A DNA stretch of 64,000 nt from contig NZ_ML762432.1 in NCBI RefSeq assembly GCF_009498735.1, positions 74,956-138,955 of the forward strand, in the 5' to 3' direction. Made by a program: the position numbers and the translations under genes. This stretch comes from Gracilibacillus oryzae (GTDB lineage: Bacteria; Bacillota; Bacilli; Bacillales; Amphibacillaceae). The notes under the pieces are model-generated. The model was given only the letters and a program-made list of their open reading frames with translations, searched no databases and was not told the DNA's origin. This document shows positions 9,383 to 56,024 of the stretch, piece after piece (position 1 is the stretch's first letter; every line of letters starts with the position of its first letter).

Positions 9383-9747
9383 GGGGACGTTACGGATTCG
9401 ACAGGGGTAGGTCGAGCTCAGGTTGCGCGTCGAGGTTACGACTCGTAAAACGTTAACGCCAATAATAACTGGCAAAGAAAACAATTACTCTTTAGCAGCT
9501 GCCTAAGCACTGACTAAAGGATCCTTCCTGCCATCGCCCATGTGGCAGATTGAAGGGTCTCACTTATTAGTGGGCTACGCTGTGATCCTCCGTCTGGGGA
9601 TTTGCAGAAGAGACTAATCAGACTAGCTGCTCGGACGCCTGTTGGTAGGCAGAACAGTTAGCGAAATCGCGAATATACCAACTACACGTGTAGAAGCCTG
9701 AGTGCCGATATCCTTGGACGTGGGTTCGATTCCCACCGTCTCCACCA
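9383..9747 (+). ncRNA. ssrA: Transfer-messenger RNA (tmRNA, 10Sa RNA)
   Basis: The 5' end GGGGACGTTACGGATTCGAC and the 3' end GGGTTCGATTCCCACCGTC followed by TCCACCA are the tRNA-like half; GGGGACG pairs with CGTCTCC, and the CCA end is encoded. The tag reading frame runs 9471-9503 and reads GKENNYSLAAA then TAA, so the full tag is expected to be A-GKENNYSLAAA after the alanine brought by the tmRNA itself. Most bacilli end in LAA; here the last three residues are AAA. smpB is immediately upstream. Confidence 0.98.
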
Positions 9748-28041: not shown

Positions 28042-29124
28042 TTACTGAGAAATATTAATTTGCTTTATATGAAATTTTACTATTGGAGTAATCTCAACAG
28101 CTGGATACCTTTGTTGCCATTCGTCTTTGTTCCAGTCTCTAAACTTACTTCTGGCAGATGCTCCTATCATTAAAGGATCAATTTCGGTTTCTTGAAATTC
28201 TTTAATTAAACGAACCGCGTCTTTTTCTAAATCTTTTCCTATTTCCTTTTCTAATTCCTCTTTTTCTCTGGTATTATCAACTGAAACACTTACCGTTTCA
28301 GCCAAAAAACCATCAATTGTTATGATTATATTAAGCTTATCTTTTGATACCCATTCTTTTTTATGGCTAGAGCGGATAGAAATGACATCTATCGATTGGT
28401 TTTTCTTTCTCCATTCAAACTGATATGTCCCATCCGTTATATTTTCAAACATTGACTTAAAGGTGAAAAATTGATCAGGTCCAATCTCATGTACCAATTT
28501 ATCTTTGGAAAAAAACCCTAAACCAATAACATCTGCAGCTGCAGTGCTTGTTGAGACAATTGGCATAAACGGATCCATCCCGTCACCACTGTTTTGATAA
28601 TTAAACAGATGAAGATTCATATTTGGTAAATTCCTCTTCATGTTGCTCTCCATTAAACTTTTAATATAGTGTGGAAAAGTTTGCTGTAATTCATATTTTT
28701 TTGCAAGAAGGTCTTCTGCCTTTCCTTTCACAATGACAGGATATAAATTTCTGCCGATATCAGGGATTTCATTTATCCCCTGCAGAATTTTTTTAATTCC
28801 TTTTTCAGCTAATTCTTCTCCAAACATAATGCTTGTTAATTTCCCTGTCTCTACTTGAAAAGGTGCTTTATTTTGAGTCTTTGCATTAATCCCTTGAACA
28901 GTTTTGGAGCGGCTCGTATAATAAGTATTCTCTCTTACACTTGTCTGTTCACTGAACCCATAAAGGGGGGACACAGCTGTGCCAATATATTGTTCTTTAA
29001 TCGGATCCCAGTCAAAGCCATAAAGCATAATTAATTCAATGTCATCAATAACGGTTGTTCTCACACAACCAGTTAATAACATGATAGTGCAAATGAATGT
29101 TAGAAGAATTTTATTAACTTTCAA
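28042..29124 (-). CDS. Spore germination receptor C subunit, Ger(x)C lipoprotein
   Basis: The 360-residue GerAC-family lipoprotein belongs to a germinant receptor in the inner spore membrane. The signal sequence ends in LLTGC with lipidated Cys20. The family's DDIELIMLYGFDWD start and the C-terminal Ger domain are present. It overlaps the B-subunit gene by 11 bases and is last in the operon A-B-C. The germinant cannot be inferred. Confidence 0.9.
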   Translation of the reverse strand: MKVNKILLTFICTIMLLTGCVRTTVIDDIELIMLYGFDWDPIKEQYIGTAVSPLYGFSEQTSVRENTYYTSRSKTVQGINAKTQNKAPFQVETGKLTSIMFGEELAEKGIKKILQGINEIPDIGRNLYPVIVKGKAEDLLAKKYELQQTFPHYIKSLMESNMKRNLPNMNLHLFNYQNSGDGMDPFMPIVSTSTAAADVIGLGFFSKDKLVHEIGPDQFFTFKSMFENITDGTYQFEWRKKNQSIDVISIRSSHKKEWVSKDKLNIIITIDGFLAETVSVSVDNTREKEELEKEIGKDLEKDAVRLIKEFQETEIDPLMIGASARSKFRDWNKDEWQQRYPAVEITPIVKFHIKQINISQ

Positions 29125-30217
29125 GGCGTTTTTTCACTCCCGTATGAATTATATGGCAAATGTAAAGAAAGGGAATATAAAGAAATAAGAGATACATACC
29201 TGCTTTGGTTAAAAGAGCAGACAGCTTTTCAACGATAAGATAATCACTCAATACAAACATACAAGCGACACCACTGATTGCAGATATGATAGAAATTCCC
29301 CGAAAAGAAAATTTTGTTAACCGATGAAAAGATTGAACACTGCCCCAGAAATATAACCCTGTTGTAGCAATGATGCTTCCAAAATGAAGGCTGATCCCGA
29401 CATATTCAAATCTTTCGATAAAAGGGAGACTGACTATTTTCCATACATGAAGGGCTGGCCAAGTTAATTGCTGAATTTGATTTTCACTAAAGTAAAAAAA
29501 ATCAGCAATAATAATGAGTAAATACAATAAGGTTGTATAGATATTTGCACTAATGGCCCATTTCCGGCTTTTATGGAATTGACGAATAAAAGGTGCGAAC
29601 AACAAGATAAGCTCCACACCTAAAAAACTGCTGACGATCGGTTCGACTGCCTTAATAATATTCAAGTAATCAGTACTGAGAATTGGAAGCAGGTTCTCGA
29701 TATGTCCAGTCTTAAAGGGAGTATAGACTGTGAATAGTAATGACAAAGGGATCCAGGCACTAAAAAAAGCAAATCCGACGATGATGCGAAAACCGCCTAA
29801 AACGATGTAAACAATAAGTAGGTAGATAATGAAATAAAACCATAGTAAAGATAAATCAGGGAAAAACCATACTTGAATGATTTCCACATATGACCGCAAA
29901 ACAAACATAGAGATGACCAGAAGATATATTCCGAAAAGAAAAGAAAGAAGATTACCAATGATTTTGCCAAATAATGTTTGATGAATATCAATCAAATCTT
30001 CGTGGGGAGGAATTAACCTCCATATTACAATAATTACAAGGGTGACTAAAAACCCTGTAATAAGTACACTGATCCAACTATCATATCCTGCAATTTTGGT
30101 GATCTTCCTGCCGAATGATAAAATCCCTTCTCCCATTTGTGAACTGAAAAGGATAAAAAAAATTAAAAATGGGGAAACCATTTGGCTTATATCGGGTTTT
30201 TGCTGCTGGGTGTTCAT
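29114..30217 (-). CDS. Spore germination receptor B subunit, GerAB family
   Basis: The 367-residue protein has about ten hydrophobic helices and belongs to the GerAB family of the APC transporter superfamily, thought to bind the germinant. The N-terminal ISQMVSPFLIFFILFSSQMGEGIL fits the family. It lies 8 bases after the A subunit and overlaps the C subunit. Confidence 0.9.
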   Translation of the reverse strand: MNTQQQKPDISQMVSPFLIFFILFSSQMGEGILSFGRKITKIAGYDSWISVLITGFLVTLVIIVIWRLIPPHEDLIDIHQTLFGKIIGNLLSFLFGIYLLVISMFVLRSYVEIIQVWFFPDLSLLWFYFIIYLLIVYIVLGGFRIIVGFAFFSAWIPLSLLFTVYTPFKTGHIENLLPILSTDYLNIIKAVEPIVSSFLGVELILLFAPFIRQFHKSRKWAISANIYTTLLYLLIIIADFFYFSENQIQQLTWPALHVWKIVSLPFIERFEYVGISLHFGSIIATTGLYFWGSVQSFHRLTKFSFRGISIISAISGVACMFVLSDYLIVEKLSALLTKAGMYLLFLYIPFLYICHIIHTGVKKRLES

Positions 30218-30225
30218 AATCTTTC

Positions 30226-31713
30226 CTACTTTCTCTTTCCGTTTTTCGCCGTTGTTCTTCTTGAATTCATTCGGTTTTTATCCCCGGTTGTTGTTAAAAT
30301 AGGCCGCTTTTTTTGCACACTAAATGGCAATCGGAAGAAGGAATCCTTTAAGTCTGGCCATCTCGGCGGATAAAATGGCTCTGTGTAAGGTCGCCCCAGT
30401 GAAGTTAATCTTAGTAAATGGGTAACCATAAACATAACTGCTATCGATATGCCGATAATTCCCCACATTTGTGCAAAAATAATAAAAGGAAAACGGATAA
30501 GACGGATCGTATTACCAATTCGGTAAATCGGTGTTGTAAAAGATGCCAAAGCCGCCAATGCTACCAATATGAGTAAGACATTACTTGTTAAGCCGGCTTC
30601 CACAGCGGCAGTACCAATTACAATTCCCCCTACGATACCAATGGTCTGACCGATTTTAGTCGGCAGCCTTGCTCCAGCCTCCCGCAATAGTTCAATCGTT
30701 AATTCAAGAATTAAAACTTCTAAGACTGGGGGGAAGGGGATATCTTTTCTTGAAGAAATAATTGTTCCCAATAAATCAATTGGCACAACATGATAATGAT
30801 AAGTCAAAACAGCGACATACAATGGCGTAACTAAAACAGAAAACATCACCGCAAAGATACGAATGATTCGAAATGCTGTTGCCAGAGGCCATGTCAGAAA
30901 ATAATCTTCATAAGATGCAAAAAATCCAACTAATGTAGTAGGCCCTGTTAATACTTGAGGAGAACCATCACAAATGATGGCAACTTTCCCTTCTATAAGG
31001 GCACTTGTTACACGATCAGGTCTTTCTGTGTCCATTAATTGAGCAAATGGTGATGCCGAATTATCTATTATCATTTGCCCGATAAAGGAGCTATCAGTTA
31101 TCTGGTCATATTCAATATCATTAATTCTTTGTATCACTGTATCAATATTATCTTGATTGGCAATCCCATCAATGTACACAACAGCAACAGACGTTTTAGT
31201 GATCTTTCCAACTTGCAGCACCTTCACTTGCAGTTGAGGCAATTTAAGTCTTTTCCTGATTAAGTTGATATTTGTATTTAAGTCTTCAATAAAGGCAACT
31301 TTTGGACCGAGTACACTAAATTCAATTTCAGGTTGTGAGACAGGCCTGTCTGTAATAAATATTGCAGGCATCAACAGTACCTGCTGCAGATCATGATTAG
31401 GAGCAATTGCAATATATCCAGATAATAATTTCTCTTCTATTATTTTTAAATCAGAGGTAATCTCTGTTTCATCAAAAGGAAGAATATTCATCAAATCGTG
31501 TAGGTTATTAATCGTTAAATCGTGGCAATATGGCAAAAGGTTTGTCTTAACCTTATCTGTATCAATTAACGATTGATAATAATATATGTTAAGGTTAAGA
31601 TTGCTTCCGAATTGCAATCTCTTAAAATCATCACTTTTTTGCATCACTTCTAATAATCCGGAAAAATTTTCAACAGGATTTGAATGGTGGGTTTTTCTTG
31701 ATCTGCGTAACAT
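30226..31713 (-). CDS. Spore germination receptor A subunit, GerAA family
   Basis: The 495-residue subunit has a soluble N-terminal region (about 1-240) and a C-terminal membrane part (about 250-430) with DRVTSALIEGKVAIICDGSP and PFPPVLEVLILELTIELLREAG, both typical of GerA proteins. It heads the A-B-C operon. The ribosome site is GAAAGGCG. A sigma-G-like promoter lies just upstream, consistent with forespore expression. It is divergent from the flavoprotein gene. Confidence 0.92.
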   Translation of the reverse strand: MLRRSRKTHHSNPVENFSGLLEVMQKSDDFKRLQFGSNLNLNIYYYQSLIDTDKVKTNLLPYCHDLTINNLHDLMNILPFDETEITSDLKIIEEKLLSGYIAIAPNHDLQQVLLMPAIFITDRPVSQPEIEFSVLGPKVAFIEDLNTNINLIRKRLKLPQLQVKVLQVGKITKTSVAVVYIDGIANQDNIDTVIQRINDIEYDQITDSSFIGQMIIDNSASPFAQLMDTERPDRVTSALIEGKVAIICDGSPQVLTGPTTLVGFFASYEDYFLTWPLATAFRIIRIFAVMFSVLVTPLYVAVLTYHYHVVPIDLLGTIISSRKDIPFPPVLEVLILELTIELLREAGARLPTKIGQTIGIVGGIVIGTAAVEAGLTSNVLLILVALAALASFTTPIYRIGNTIRLIRFPFIIFAQMWGIIGISIAVMFMVTHLLRLTSLGRPYTEPFYPPRWPDLKDSFFRLPFSVQKKRPILTTTGDKNRMNSRRTTAKNGKRK

Positions 31714-51920: not shown

Positions 51921-52008
51921 TATCCCTATTGAAATTATTTTTTCTCACCAGTAAAATATCTATTTGTCCCCTCCTTCTCATATAAATTTAGGGAAGGGGG
52001 GTTTTAAA

Positions 52009-52785
52009 TTGAAAAGGGCGAGAAAAATAGCTGCACCTCCAATGAGGCAAATCGCTTATATCTCTTTATTGTTATTCATAATTTGCATGATCTCCAGTTT
52101 ATTAATTGTAAATGAAGGGATCAAACCAGTCCTGCTCGAAATTGCAAAAGTGAAGGTAAGTCAAATAGCGAACCAGGCAGTGGGGATTGCTGTAAATAAA
52201 AAAATATCAGAAGATTTAGAAAATGATAAATTAATCCAATATGAAGTTGATGAACAAGGCAGAGTAGTAAATTATATTTTTAATTCGATTATTGAGAATC
52301 GCGTCCAACGCAATATTCAATATCGTGTAGAGAATTTTCTGAAGTTACTTGAAGAGGGAGACAGACCTGAAATTGGTGTGCCGCTCGAAGTGGAAATGGA
52401 GCTGGAACCATCAGAAAAAAAGTTACTGGATGAAATCAGGAAAAGAGGCCTTCTTGTTGAAGTGCCATTAGGCCAGACTTTAGGCATTCCATTATTAGCA
52501 AATTTAGGACCGAAAATCCCTGTAAATATGGAAGTAATTGGTTTTGTTGAAACATCCATAACAAGTGATATTGTTGAAACAGGGGTCAATGGTGCTTATA
52601 TTCACGTCAATGTTCATATTGAGGTAGAAATGCGAGTTGTTATTCCTTTTGCTTCAGAACCGGTCAGAGTAGTGCAGGATATTCCTGTAACAAAAGTATT
52701 CCATCCAGGTGATGTGCCAGACTATTACCAGGACGGTGAAGGTGATTCTAATTTATCAGTTCCTCTTGATCCGCCAATTGATTAA
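52009..52785 (+). CDS. yunB: Sporulation protein YunB
   Basis: The 258-residue protein has a single N-terminal membrane anchor (about 12-36), followed by an extracytoplasmic domain. In B. subtilis yunB is a sigma-E gene needed for efficient sporulation. Recognisable stretches are NEGIKPVLLEIAKVKVSQIANQA-type sequence near 38-58 and the IPVNMEVIGFVETSITSDIVE region. The start is TTG at 52009, after AAGGGGGG. The C-terminal tail is acidic. Confidence 0.85.
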   Translation: MKRARKIAAPPMRQIAYISLLLFIICMISSLLIVNEGIKPVLLEIAKVKVSQIANQAVGIAVNKKISEDLENDKLIQYEVDEQGRVVNYIFNSIIENRVQRNIQYRVENFLKLLEEGDRPEIGVPLEVEMELEPSEKKLLDEIRKRGLLVEVPLGQTLGIPLLANLGPKIPVNMEVIGFVETSITSDIVETGVNGAYIHVNVHIEVEMRVVIPFASEPVRVVQDIPVTKVFHPGDVPDYYQDGEGDSNLSVPLDPPID

Positions 52786-53043: not shown

Positions 53044-54525
53044 ATGGAACAACGCTCTCAGTGGGGAACTAGAATCGGTTTTTTACTTGCAGCAATTGGT
53101 TCAGCAGTTGGTCTAGGAAACATTTGGCGTTTTCCAGCGACTGCATTTGAAAACGGTGGGGGTGCGTTCTTTGTCCCGTATTTATTTGCACTATTAACAG
53201 CAGGTATTCCTCTCTTAATAATGGAATACACAATTGGTCATAAATATCGAAGTTCTTCACCTCGAAGTTTTTCCAAAATTAGTAAGGGGATGGAATGGAT
53301 TGGTTGGTGGCAGGTACTTATATCATTTGTAATTTCAACTTATTATCCAATCATTATAGCATGGTCTATCATGTATACTTATTTTTCGTTCGGAACAAAG
53401 TGGGGGGACGATCCAACGGCCTTCTTCGTCTCTGATTTCTTAAATAAATCAGATGCTGGGATCTTTGGATCAATAGTTCCGTCTGTATTAATTCCAGTAA
53501 TCTTTGTCTGGATCTTTGTTTTCTTCTTCCTGGGACGTGGGGTGAAGAAAGGGATTGAATTTGCCAATCGTATTTTTATCCCTACATTATTAATTGTCTT
53601 TATTATTATCGTGATAAGAGCATTAACCTTACCTGGAGCAATGGAAGGATTGGATGCGTTCTTTAAACCGGACTGGAGCAGAATTATGGATGGTTCTGTT
53701 TGGATAGCAGCATATGGACAAATCTTCTTTAGTTTATCCATTGCTTTTGCTATTATGATTACTTATGCTTCCTATTTACCCAAAAAATCTGATATAACAA
53801 ACAACGCGTTTATTACAGGATTTGCGAACTCATCATTTGAGTTATTGGCAGGTATTGGAGTTTTTGCTGTGTTAGGATTTATGGCTACTCAAACATCACA
53901 GCCTGTATCAGAAGTTGTCCAGAGTGGGGTAGGGCTTGCATTTATGGTATTCCCGGAGATTATTAGTCAGATGCCTGCATCAAGTTTCTTTGGAGTTTTA
54001 TTCTTTGGAGCATTAGTACTTGCAGGTATTTCTTCCATGATTTCTATTTCCGAGACATATATTGCAGCAGTTCAGGAAAAGTTTTCGATATCACGTGGCA
54101 AGGCATTAATGTTTGGTGGAGGCTTAGCATTCTTAGCATCCTTGTTGTATGCAAATCAAGGCGGATTAAATTTACTGGATACAGTGGATTACTTTATTAA
54201 TAATTATGGTGTGGCACTGGCTGGTCTGTTTGAGGTAGTAGCGATCGCCTGGTTTGCTAAAGGATTAAGGGACTTACAAACTCATGCGGATAATATCTCC
54301 GACATAAAACTAGGAATATGGTGGAGAATTTCACTTGGTGCAATTACACCTGTAGTGCTTGGCTTTATGATGCTGCAAAACTTGAAGACAGATCTTTCCC
54401 GTCCATATGAGGACTATCCAATTGAATTCTTGTTTAATTTCGGTTGGCTTGTTGCAATTGGAGCTATGCTCATTGGTGCATTAATTTCCACAAAAAAATG
54501 GCCGAAAAATGATAAAGAAGCCTAA
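53044..54525 (+). CDS. Neurotransmitter:sodium symporter family amino-acid transporter
   Basis: The 493-residue protein has about eleven to twelve helices and the LeuT-family signature LAAIGSAVGLGNIWRFPATA (residues 14-33), whose unwound GLGNIWRFP segment holds sodium and substrate. It resembles B. subtilis YocR/YhdH. Sodium-coupled uptake of an amino acid is expected; which one is not determinable. A 32-residue membrane peptide gene follows 18 bases downstream. It sits between yunB and lytH, an insertion relative to B. subtilis. Confidence 0.9.
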   Translation: MEQRSQWGTRIGFLLAAIGSAVGLGNIWRFPATAFENGGGAFFVPYLFALLTAGIPLLIMEYTIGHKYRSSSPRSFSKISKGMEWIGWWQVLISFVISTYYPIIIAWSIMYTYFSFGTKWGDDPTAFFVSDFLNKSDAGIFGSIVPSVLIPVIFVWIFVFFFLGRGVKKGIEFANRIFIPTLLIVFIIIVIRALTLPGAMEGLDAFFKPDWSRIMDGSVWIAAYGQIFFSLSIAFAIMITYASYLPKKSDITNNAFITGFANSSFELLAGIGVFAVLGFMATQTSQPVSEVVQSGVGLAFMVFPEIISQMPASSFFGVLFFGALVLAGISSMISISETYIAAVQEKFSISRGKALMFGGGLAFLASLLYANQGGLNLLDTVDYFINNYGVALAGLFEVVAIAWFAKGLRDLQTHADNISDIKLGIWWRISLGAITPVVLGFMMLQNLKTDLSRPYEDYPIEFLFNFGWLVAIGAMLIGALISTKKWPKNDKEA

Positions 54526-54647: not shown

Positions 54648-54680
54648 ACTCCGTAAGGCACTCTAGCCTTACGGAGTATT
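54648..54680. terminator. Bidirectional terminator between the symporter unit and lytH
   Basis: ACTCCGTAAGGC (54648-54659) pairs perfectly with GCCTTACGGAGT (54666-54677). On the plus strand it is followed by ATTTCTTT; on the minus strand it includes the lytH stop codon and is followed by TATTTTTACTTA. Confidence 0.85.
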
Positions 54681-55619
54681 TCTTTCCCATTTTTTTAAGT
54701 AGGGATATGGATCGAAAGACCACTCACTTTTCCCATCATCTTTATACATACCATAATGAAGGTGAGGCGGGAATTTTCCAGATGTTCCAGGCGGCCCGTA
54801 TCCACTTGAACCTACCGATCCGATTGTATCACCAGCTTCTACAATATCGCCAACTTCAATTCCCTCGGCAAATCCGTTTAAATGAGCGTAATAGTGGTAT
54901 CTGTTATAAGTATCCCGAATACCAATTCGCCATCCGCCAAACTTATTCCATCCTTTTAATTCTACGATTCCAAATGTTGTGGCCCTGACAGGTGTTCCAT
55001 AATTAGCAAAAATGTCTGTTCCTTCGTGAATCCTTCTGCCACCGAATCCGCGAGCATCTCCCCATGTATTGCGATAGCTGTAATTGTATCCCTTTGGAAT
55101 GGGGAAAGATGTCGTATCAAACGTGAGTCGATTATACTGCTTCATTAACCTTGCATAATTCATAATAGACAGGACAGCTAAATCACGGTGATAGTAGTTC
55201 CATAAAGCAGCTTTGATGTCTTGTTCAGAATGTCCGTAGCGCTGAAGGTAATTGCCAACTGTATACAAAATATCTAAATCATTCTCTATATGCGCCAATC
55301 CATCCCCATCACCGTCTTTTCCTGTCCCGTGAAACATTGCAATCATATTCGGGTCAGTAGAAGCAGGTGGAGCAAGTCCGTACCATTTTTGCTCAGATAT
55401 CTGAATATCGATAAGCTGGTTTTCTTCTGATGACTTTCTGATATTTGATTAATACTGGTTCATTGCTGCATAATAATACCATGGAATATTTGTGACTGCT
55501 TCCATCTGTTTAAACATGTTAATTTTTTGTTCTTCCTCATCCACATTTTCTTCAGCATATGCTATAGTAGTAAGAAGAAAATAACTAGAGACAACGATTA
55601 AAAAAACGCGTTTAATCAA
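54669..55619 (-). pseudogene. lytH: lytH (M23 endopeptidase of spore cortex), interrupted by a nonsense codon
   Basis: Read from TTG at 55619 (ribosome site AAGGAGGAAA), the frame gives a signal peptide (IKRVFLIVVSSYFLLTTIAYA), then IPWYYYAAMNQY, then TAA at 55449-55451, and continues in the same frame with SNIRKSSEEN to a complete M23 domain ending at 54669, about 316 codons in all. LytH is 326 residues in B. subtilis. Zinc ligands are visible in GGRRIHEGTDIFA (H, D) and PPHLHYGMY (HxH). The protein trims cortex peptides to single L-alanine side chains. The stop most likely replaces a GAA or CAA codon. A restart at 55346 would lack the signal peptide. Confidence 0.85.
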
Positions 55620-55748
55620 AAAATTTCCTCCTTATGGAATTATTTTATTTATGTAATTAGTTTAAGTAGTAATCAATATTTCATTCTAGCAACATTTTCT
55701 ATTTAAGGTAATAGCAGTGCGGAATAGAACAGGAGAGTGTCACGGAAT

Positions 55749-56024
55749 ATGGTGGAAATCCAGGGAAAAACTTATCAGGTTATAAAAGAATTTCGCGAAG
55801 GGTTTGACGAAAAAGCTTTTAAAGAACGATACAGTGAAGTGCTAAGTAAATATGATTTCATTTTAGGTGATTGGGGATATGAACAATTACGATTGAAGGG
55901 TTTTTATGATGATCAGAACCCGAAAGCAACATTTGATACAAAAATCAGTACATGTGAAGATTATTTGTATGAATATTGTAACTTTGGCTGCCGTTATTTT
56001 GTAGTGAAACAAATTAACAAGTAA
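55749..56024 (+). CDS. yutD: DUF1027 protein YutD
   Basis: The 91-residue protein matches YutD: FILGDWGYEQLRLKGFYDD near 40-58 and TCEDYLYEYCNFGCRYFVVK near 70-90 are family hallmarks. Function is unknown. AGGAG at 55731-55735 is closest to a GTG at 55737 (too close) and an ATG at 55749 (13 bases); the ATG is preferred, with some doubt. The B. subtilis neighbour lipA is missing between lytH and yutD. Confidence 0.85.
   Translation: MVEIQGKTYQVIKEFREGFDEKAFKERYSEVLSKYDFILGDWGYEQLRLKGFYDDQNPKATFDTKISTCEDYLYEYCNFGCRYFVVKQINK

Follow-up and report, generated by a model that had tools for sequence, protein, structure and literature searches.

An early stop codon in lytH of a Gracilibacillus, probably a recent null allele, and a lysozyme-like domain in the intact LytH protein

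LytH (YunA) of B. subtilis, the L-Ala-D-Glu endopeptidase of the spore cortex, is responsible for the muramic acid that carries one L-alanine alone, according to the part of PMC9662197 drawn upon here; in the corresponding part of PMC10653849, LytH is listed together with sigK. A lysozyme-like domain is mentioned in neither part and, in the titles and abstract openings of the literature searched, neither such a domain in LytH nor a natural loss of lytH is described. The gene reported below shares with B. subtilis LytH the M23 domain and a location close to yunB and to a yutD-like gene, likeness in length and layout being drawn from relatives and not from a B. subtilis sequence; it differs in being interrupted at codon 57. 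The same domain order as in LytH is also found in seven Bacillota proteins (L109-L114, L121), which have an SLT domain, an EF-hand-like loop and an M23 domain; these proteins keep the GxMQFMP and YN motifs, which are changed in LytH. MltF and Slt35/MltB are alike in fold to the N-terminal half of LytH, when compared by VIA-align, and the position of their glutamate is consistent, but LytH has no direct profile match to E. coli MltB or MltF. The closest solved M23 domain is that of 3nyy, a putative LytM-like endopeptidase from Ruminococcus gnavus (Z 18.6, 47% identity, 145 residues), aligned over residues 169-316 only of the LytH model.

The window, i.e. the whole stretch of 64,000 nucleotides that was analysed, is part of contig C9 of a 4.63 Mb draft assembly in 53 contigs, 100% complete and 1.02% contaminated. 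The closest named LytH protein is that of Gracilibacillus ureilyticus (85% identity), followed by those of other Gracilibacillus: the genome is therefore placed in or beside this genus. Features of the locus are reported in Table 1. The lytH frame lies between a sodium-transporter gene, itself beside yunB, and a divergent yutD-like gene. The same neighbours recur in 26 named lytH loci, some of them short: a yutD-like gene is present in all 26, yunB in 23, the transporter in 21 and yunC in 16. By both orthology and conserved neighbourhood, the window gene is thus lytH. No second LytH is found in its own genome, where the other three matches are M23 hits at 33-37% identity. One stop-containing match in the same genome (C9:40081-40422) was considered as a second broken gene and rejected, since it forms the last part of an open frame of 478 codons.

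Table 1. Position, strand and supporting evidence of the features of the lytH locus; positions are those of the window
Feature	Position	Strand	Evidence or remark
yunB, intact (sporulation protein YunB)	51964..52785	+	Pfam, 166.7 bits (cut-off 111.9)
Sodium-dependent transporter gene	53044..54525	+	Pfam; adjoins lytH in 21 of 26 named loci
lytH reading frame, interrupted	54669..55619	-	read directly; orthologues in 16 of 16 congeners
Sole in-frame restart 3' of the stop, 225 aa	54669..55346	-	ATG at 55346
Peptidase_M23 domain, residues 197-295, undecayed	54735..55031	-	Pfam PF01551
Putative lysozyme/lytic-transglycosylase-like domain, residues ~28-164, cut by the stop	55128..55538	-	profile and fold comparison
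DGDGDG loop of the N-domain, residues ~102-116	55272..55316	-	region of the Pfam SLT_2 matches in relatives
In-frame TAA, codon 57	55449..55451	-	glutamate in relatives
Putative signal peptide, ~22 residues	55554..55619	-	boundary by eye; helix 2-17 in the model of the G016 protein
AAGGAGG ribosome-binding site	55627..55633	-	7 bases 5' of the TTG start; kept in relatives
yutD-like gene, divergent from lytH	55737..56024	+	Pfam; beside lytH in 26 of 26 named loci

The frame consists of 317 codons and contains, besides the terminal stop, a single internal one. A first-pass annotation, made from the sequence alone, had reported this TAA: direct reading of the frame gives the same coordinates and codon number. 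The good ribosome site and signal peptide that it had described are likewise present, as AAGGAGG before the TTG start and a signal-peptide-like N-terminus. Its description of a complete, undecayed M23 domain also holds: PF01551 scores 75.9 bits (cut-off 28.7), and the motifs HEGTD, YYAH and HLH are all found in the translation, HxxxD and HxH being the zinc-ligand motifs of M23. Translation would end at the stop, giving a first product of 56 residues, i.e. the signal peptide and about 34 more.

The stop is private to the window copy, as seen by the comparison with relatives that the first-pass annotation had proposed as a check. All 17 genomes of the genus, including the one under study, hold lytH; the 16 congeners have the same frame, fully open in 15 and frameshifted near the C-terminus in one (G001). 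Codon 57 is glutamate in every relative aligned: all 16 congeners, all 26 named loci (which extend to Paenibacillus and Cohnella), all 45 rows of the alignment of relatives (A1) and all 29 class-wide loci, own locus excluded; the four sets overlap. When 250 Bacilli genomes were searched with a whole-length profile, 171 gave a match at E <= 1e-40; among the matches listed, one in 150 has an internal stop, and that one is the window lytH. No further isolate, with or without the stop, was found, and the stop is known from one assembly.

The age of the stop was evaluated by a codon model on six sequences with an assumed tree, where synonymous sites are saturated and estimates are rough. Omega on the gene's own branch is 0.03-0.04, compared with 0.045-0.054 elsewhere, and forcing it to 1 is 8.3 log-likelihood units worse. 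A neutral phase at the tip of this branch has its best length at zero, the log-likelihood dropping by 1.67 at 0.07 and by 2.83 at 0.10 substitutions per codon. As the own branch is longer than 3 substitutions per codon, its neutral share would not exceed a few per cent, as a rough figure. For nine neighbouring genes, the same test likewise gives an own branch free of any neutral phase. Given the purifying omega and the zero neutral phase, an old pseudogene was rejected: since the stop is private and the rest of the frame is not under relaxed selection, the stop is either recent or a base-call error, the two options that the first-pass annotation had put first.

Between these two, an error of base calling or of assembly, or else a mutation confined to the sequenced culture, with lytH intact in the species, is considered rather unlikely. 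The undamaged remainder of the frame and its unrelaxed selection would be expected from an error, the assembly is a draft of 53 contigs, and an error-like homopolymer frameshift occurs in lytH of congener G001. The TAA, however, is a clean substitution and not a homopolymer slip, and the genome is complete to 100% with 1.02% contamination. Comparison with the matching 72 kb of the closest genome, G016, also speaks against an error: of 77 frames of at least 80 codons, 63 match the window, four of them with a stop inside. Two of the four stops fall in over-long upstream starts and one in an antisense shadow frame, leaving lytH as the only real break; the window sequence is therefore not generally error-ridden. 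The stop is thus probably present in the organism, rather than in the reads only.

The G001 frameshift is located in a C homopolymer close to the C-terminus, and the G runs of this gene contain additional bases (L020/L021). The sequence is identical to the G. boraciitolerans record L060, and the G001 assembly is 95% complete and 5% contaminated; the damage is probably a sequencing error.

A third option of the first-pass annotation, that the stop is read through or recoded to give a full-length protein, found no support and appears hardly credible: although the downstream frame is undecayed, no relative examined shares the stop, and the structure 3' of it is not unusual (z 0.01). No Rfam element lies near the stop, the sole Rfam match being the tmRNA at 9383-9747. 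A TTA anticodon is missing from 23 of the 25 tRNA places, as read by ARAGORN in a draft tRNA set that is clearly incomplete (the input was 11 of 25 tRNA loci, spanning all 25 places; two at contig ends were not called).

Nor is a shortened LytH at all probable as a source of residual M23 function. The restart frame does contain the entire M23 domain, but its ATG lies 35 codons past the stop and, on inspection, the frame has neither a visible ribosome-binding site nor a signal peptide. The spore cortex is situated outside the mother-cell membrane, and the restart product would lack the signal to be exported there. Because the only in-frame restart has no export signal, no LytH should reach the cortex. 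The window copy, stopped at codon 57, does not encode an exported full-length LytH, and was classed as a lytH null allele.

Judged from its other genes, the organism seems capable of sporulation. Those for SigK (369.5 bits), CwlD (263.1 bits), PdaA (321.7 bits) and SleB (325.3 bits) are all over the cut-off and in open frames, yunB is intact, and a gerA-type operon is present in the window. In a family survey of 159 genomes, a strong LytH match is missing in seven (G038, G039, G040, G111, G115, G116, G126). Six of these seven also have weak CwlD matches (best E no better than 1e-66), that of G111 being stronger (6.1e-72): loss of LytH therefore mostly accompanies decay of a cortex gene. The window genome is unlike these LytH-less family members, its CwlD being intact. 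Upstream of lytH, G016 retains a block of sequence that other species share in part; the sigma-K consensus gave no consistent promoter site there in any species.

The preferred explanation, held at a probability of about three in four, is a recent null allele of single-copy lytH in an otherwise sporulation-capable Gracilibacillus, the intact protein being composed of a lysozyme-like N-domain and an M23 domain. LytH function would then be lost and the cortex changed. With the SigK, CwlD, PdaA, SleB and YunB genes intact, the strain is predicted to form spores while exporting no LytH. By analogy with B. subtilis, its cortex would have no muramic acid bearing a single L-alanine, and longer, cross-linkable stems would be kept. 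If the stop is real, the strain offers a natural test of a LytH-less cortex in spores of a halophile.

A single isolate that lost lytH is nothing unusual; of greater interest is that the comparison revealed a second, conserved domain in this cortex enzyme. By profile and model comparison, LytH residues ~28-164 are a divergent lysozyme/lytic-transglycosylase-like domain, homologous to the lysozyme-like superfamily. Codon 57 would specify its invariant, putatively catalytic glutamate, in a half of the protein that the first-pass annotation had overlooked. That the stop landed on this very codon is most simply a coincidence, since any early stop would be equally harmful.

At the sequence level, Pfam SLT_2 at E up to 10 is matched by 29 of 45 full-length LytH relatives and by 31 of 45 N-domains, the best at 1.7e-5. 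Among LytH members shown singly, L063 scores 24.5 bits against a SLT_2 cut-off of 24.3, the others 11-17 bits or nothing; in L005, the intact copy closest to the window gene, SLT_2 is not matched, even at E up to 10. A SLT_2 search of 299 Bacillota genomes gave matches in 12, above the cut-off in 11. Nine SLT_2 loci were examined: seven had the required SLT motifs, while L115 and L116 failed the motif filter and were left out. Four of the seven SLT proteins were scanned, and all four contain SLT_2, SLT and M23. When the profile of the LytH N-domain is compared with that of the seven SLT domains, hhalign reports a 97.5% match (E 8.7e-12, 113 columns), with the glutamate aligned. Controls stay low: 3.1% for the reversed profile, 5.4% for the best of 50 column shuffles, 0.5% for the unrelated YunB. 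The Bacillota SLT profile, in turn, matches E. coli MltB at 98.4%, its glutamate landing on residue 162, which is a glutamate, E162 being the catalytic residue of MltB. Compared directly with single E. coli sequences, the LytH N-domain profile gives only 3.4% for MltB and 3.9% for MltF, i.e. no match: the link to them therefore runs through the Bacillota SLT+M23 proteins. An hmmsearch of PDB sequences with the N-domain profile returned only implausible hits, none beating chance.

Fold comparison points in the same direction. AlphaFold models the G016 protein with confidence, at a pLDDT of 88.7 as a whole and of 91.3 for the N-domain alone. Searches with the whole model are filled by M23 proteins; with the N-domain model, Foldseek finds nothing at E <= 0.001, yet lysozyme-like enzymes make up 29 of its 33 weak hits, a count that includes 4kt3 and the phi6 lysins. 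In VIA-align, the matches include MltF (Z 9.9, rmsd 3.2, 105 residues, 17% identity), Slt35 (Z 9.5, rmsd 3.7, 117 residues, 9% identity) and SltB1 (Z 9.5). All 23 rows, counted in the same way, belong to the lysozyme-like superfamily; for a helical domain, a Z of about 10 does not settle the matter by itself. In the autolysin E row, residue 1 of the model is placed at 111 so that, if ungapped, the glutamate (model residue 28) falls on E138, the catalytic mutant residue named in the title of that entry. By the same offset, the glutamate hits what are presumably the catalytic residues of Slt35, MltF, SltB1, MltC, FlgJ and Auto, and misses those of SltB3 and the Ralstonia chitinase.

The glutamate of the N-domain is kept, as is most of its DGDGDG loop, which resembles a calcium-binding loop such as that of Slt35. 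GxMQ and YN motifs are typical of lytic transglycosylases: in LytH, GxMQ is absent and the asparagine of YN is replaced by an invariant tyrosine. On account of these two changes, LytH is not filed as an active lytic transglycosylase, and the N-domain may be either an altered glycosidase or a domain that holds the strand. Chances appear even that it is an inactive, strand-binding relative of lysozyme, where the glutamate has a structural or ligand-binding role and not a catalytic one. This would fit the altered GxMQ and YN motifs, and also the description of LytH as an endopeptidase alone, in the parts of PMC9662197 and PMC10653849 drawn upon here; against it, the glutamate is unchanged in every intact copy aligned, and such invariance argues that the residue does have a role.

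A more tentative proposal, on the doubtful side, is that LytH is bifunctional in spore-forming Bacilli: the lysozyme-like domain would cut or read the cortex glycan, perhaps at muramic delta-lactam, by means of the invariant glutamate, with M23 trimming the adjacent stem peptide, and the strain would be a natural knock-out of both. In the preferred explanation given above, intact LytH consists of an N-terminal lysozyme-like domain with an invariant glutamate, followed by the M23 L-Ala-D-Glu endopeptidase, the former probably gripping, and perhaps cutting, the cortex glycan strand while the latter trims the stem. Judging by the fold of the N-domain and its invariant glutamate, LytH would act on the glycan strand besides the peptide; a two-domain LytH would bear on the placement of single-L-alanine side chains along the cortex.

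Elsewhere in the window, a tmRNA gene (+ strand, 205.5 bits) occupies 9383-9747. The germinant-receptor operon (GerA, spore permease and GerAC-type genes, identified by Pfam) is located at 28042-31713, on the - strand, and is missing from the otherwise collinear stretch of G016.
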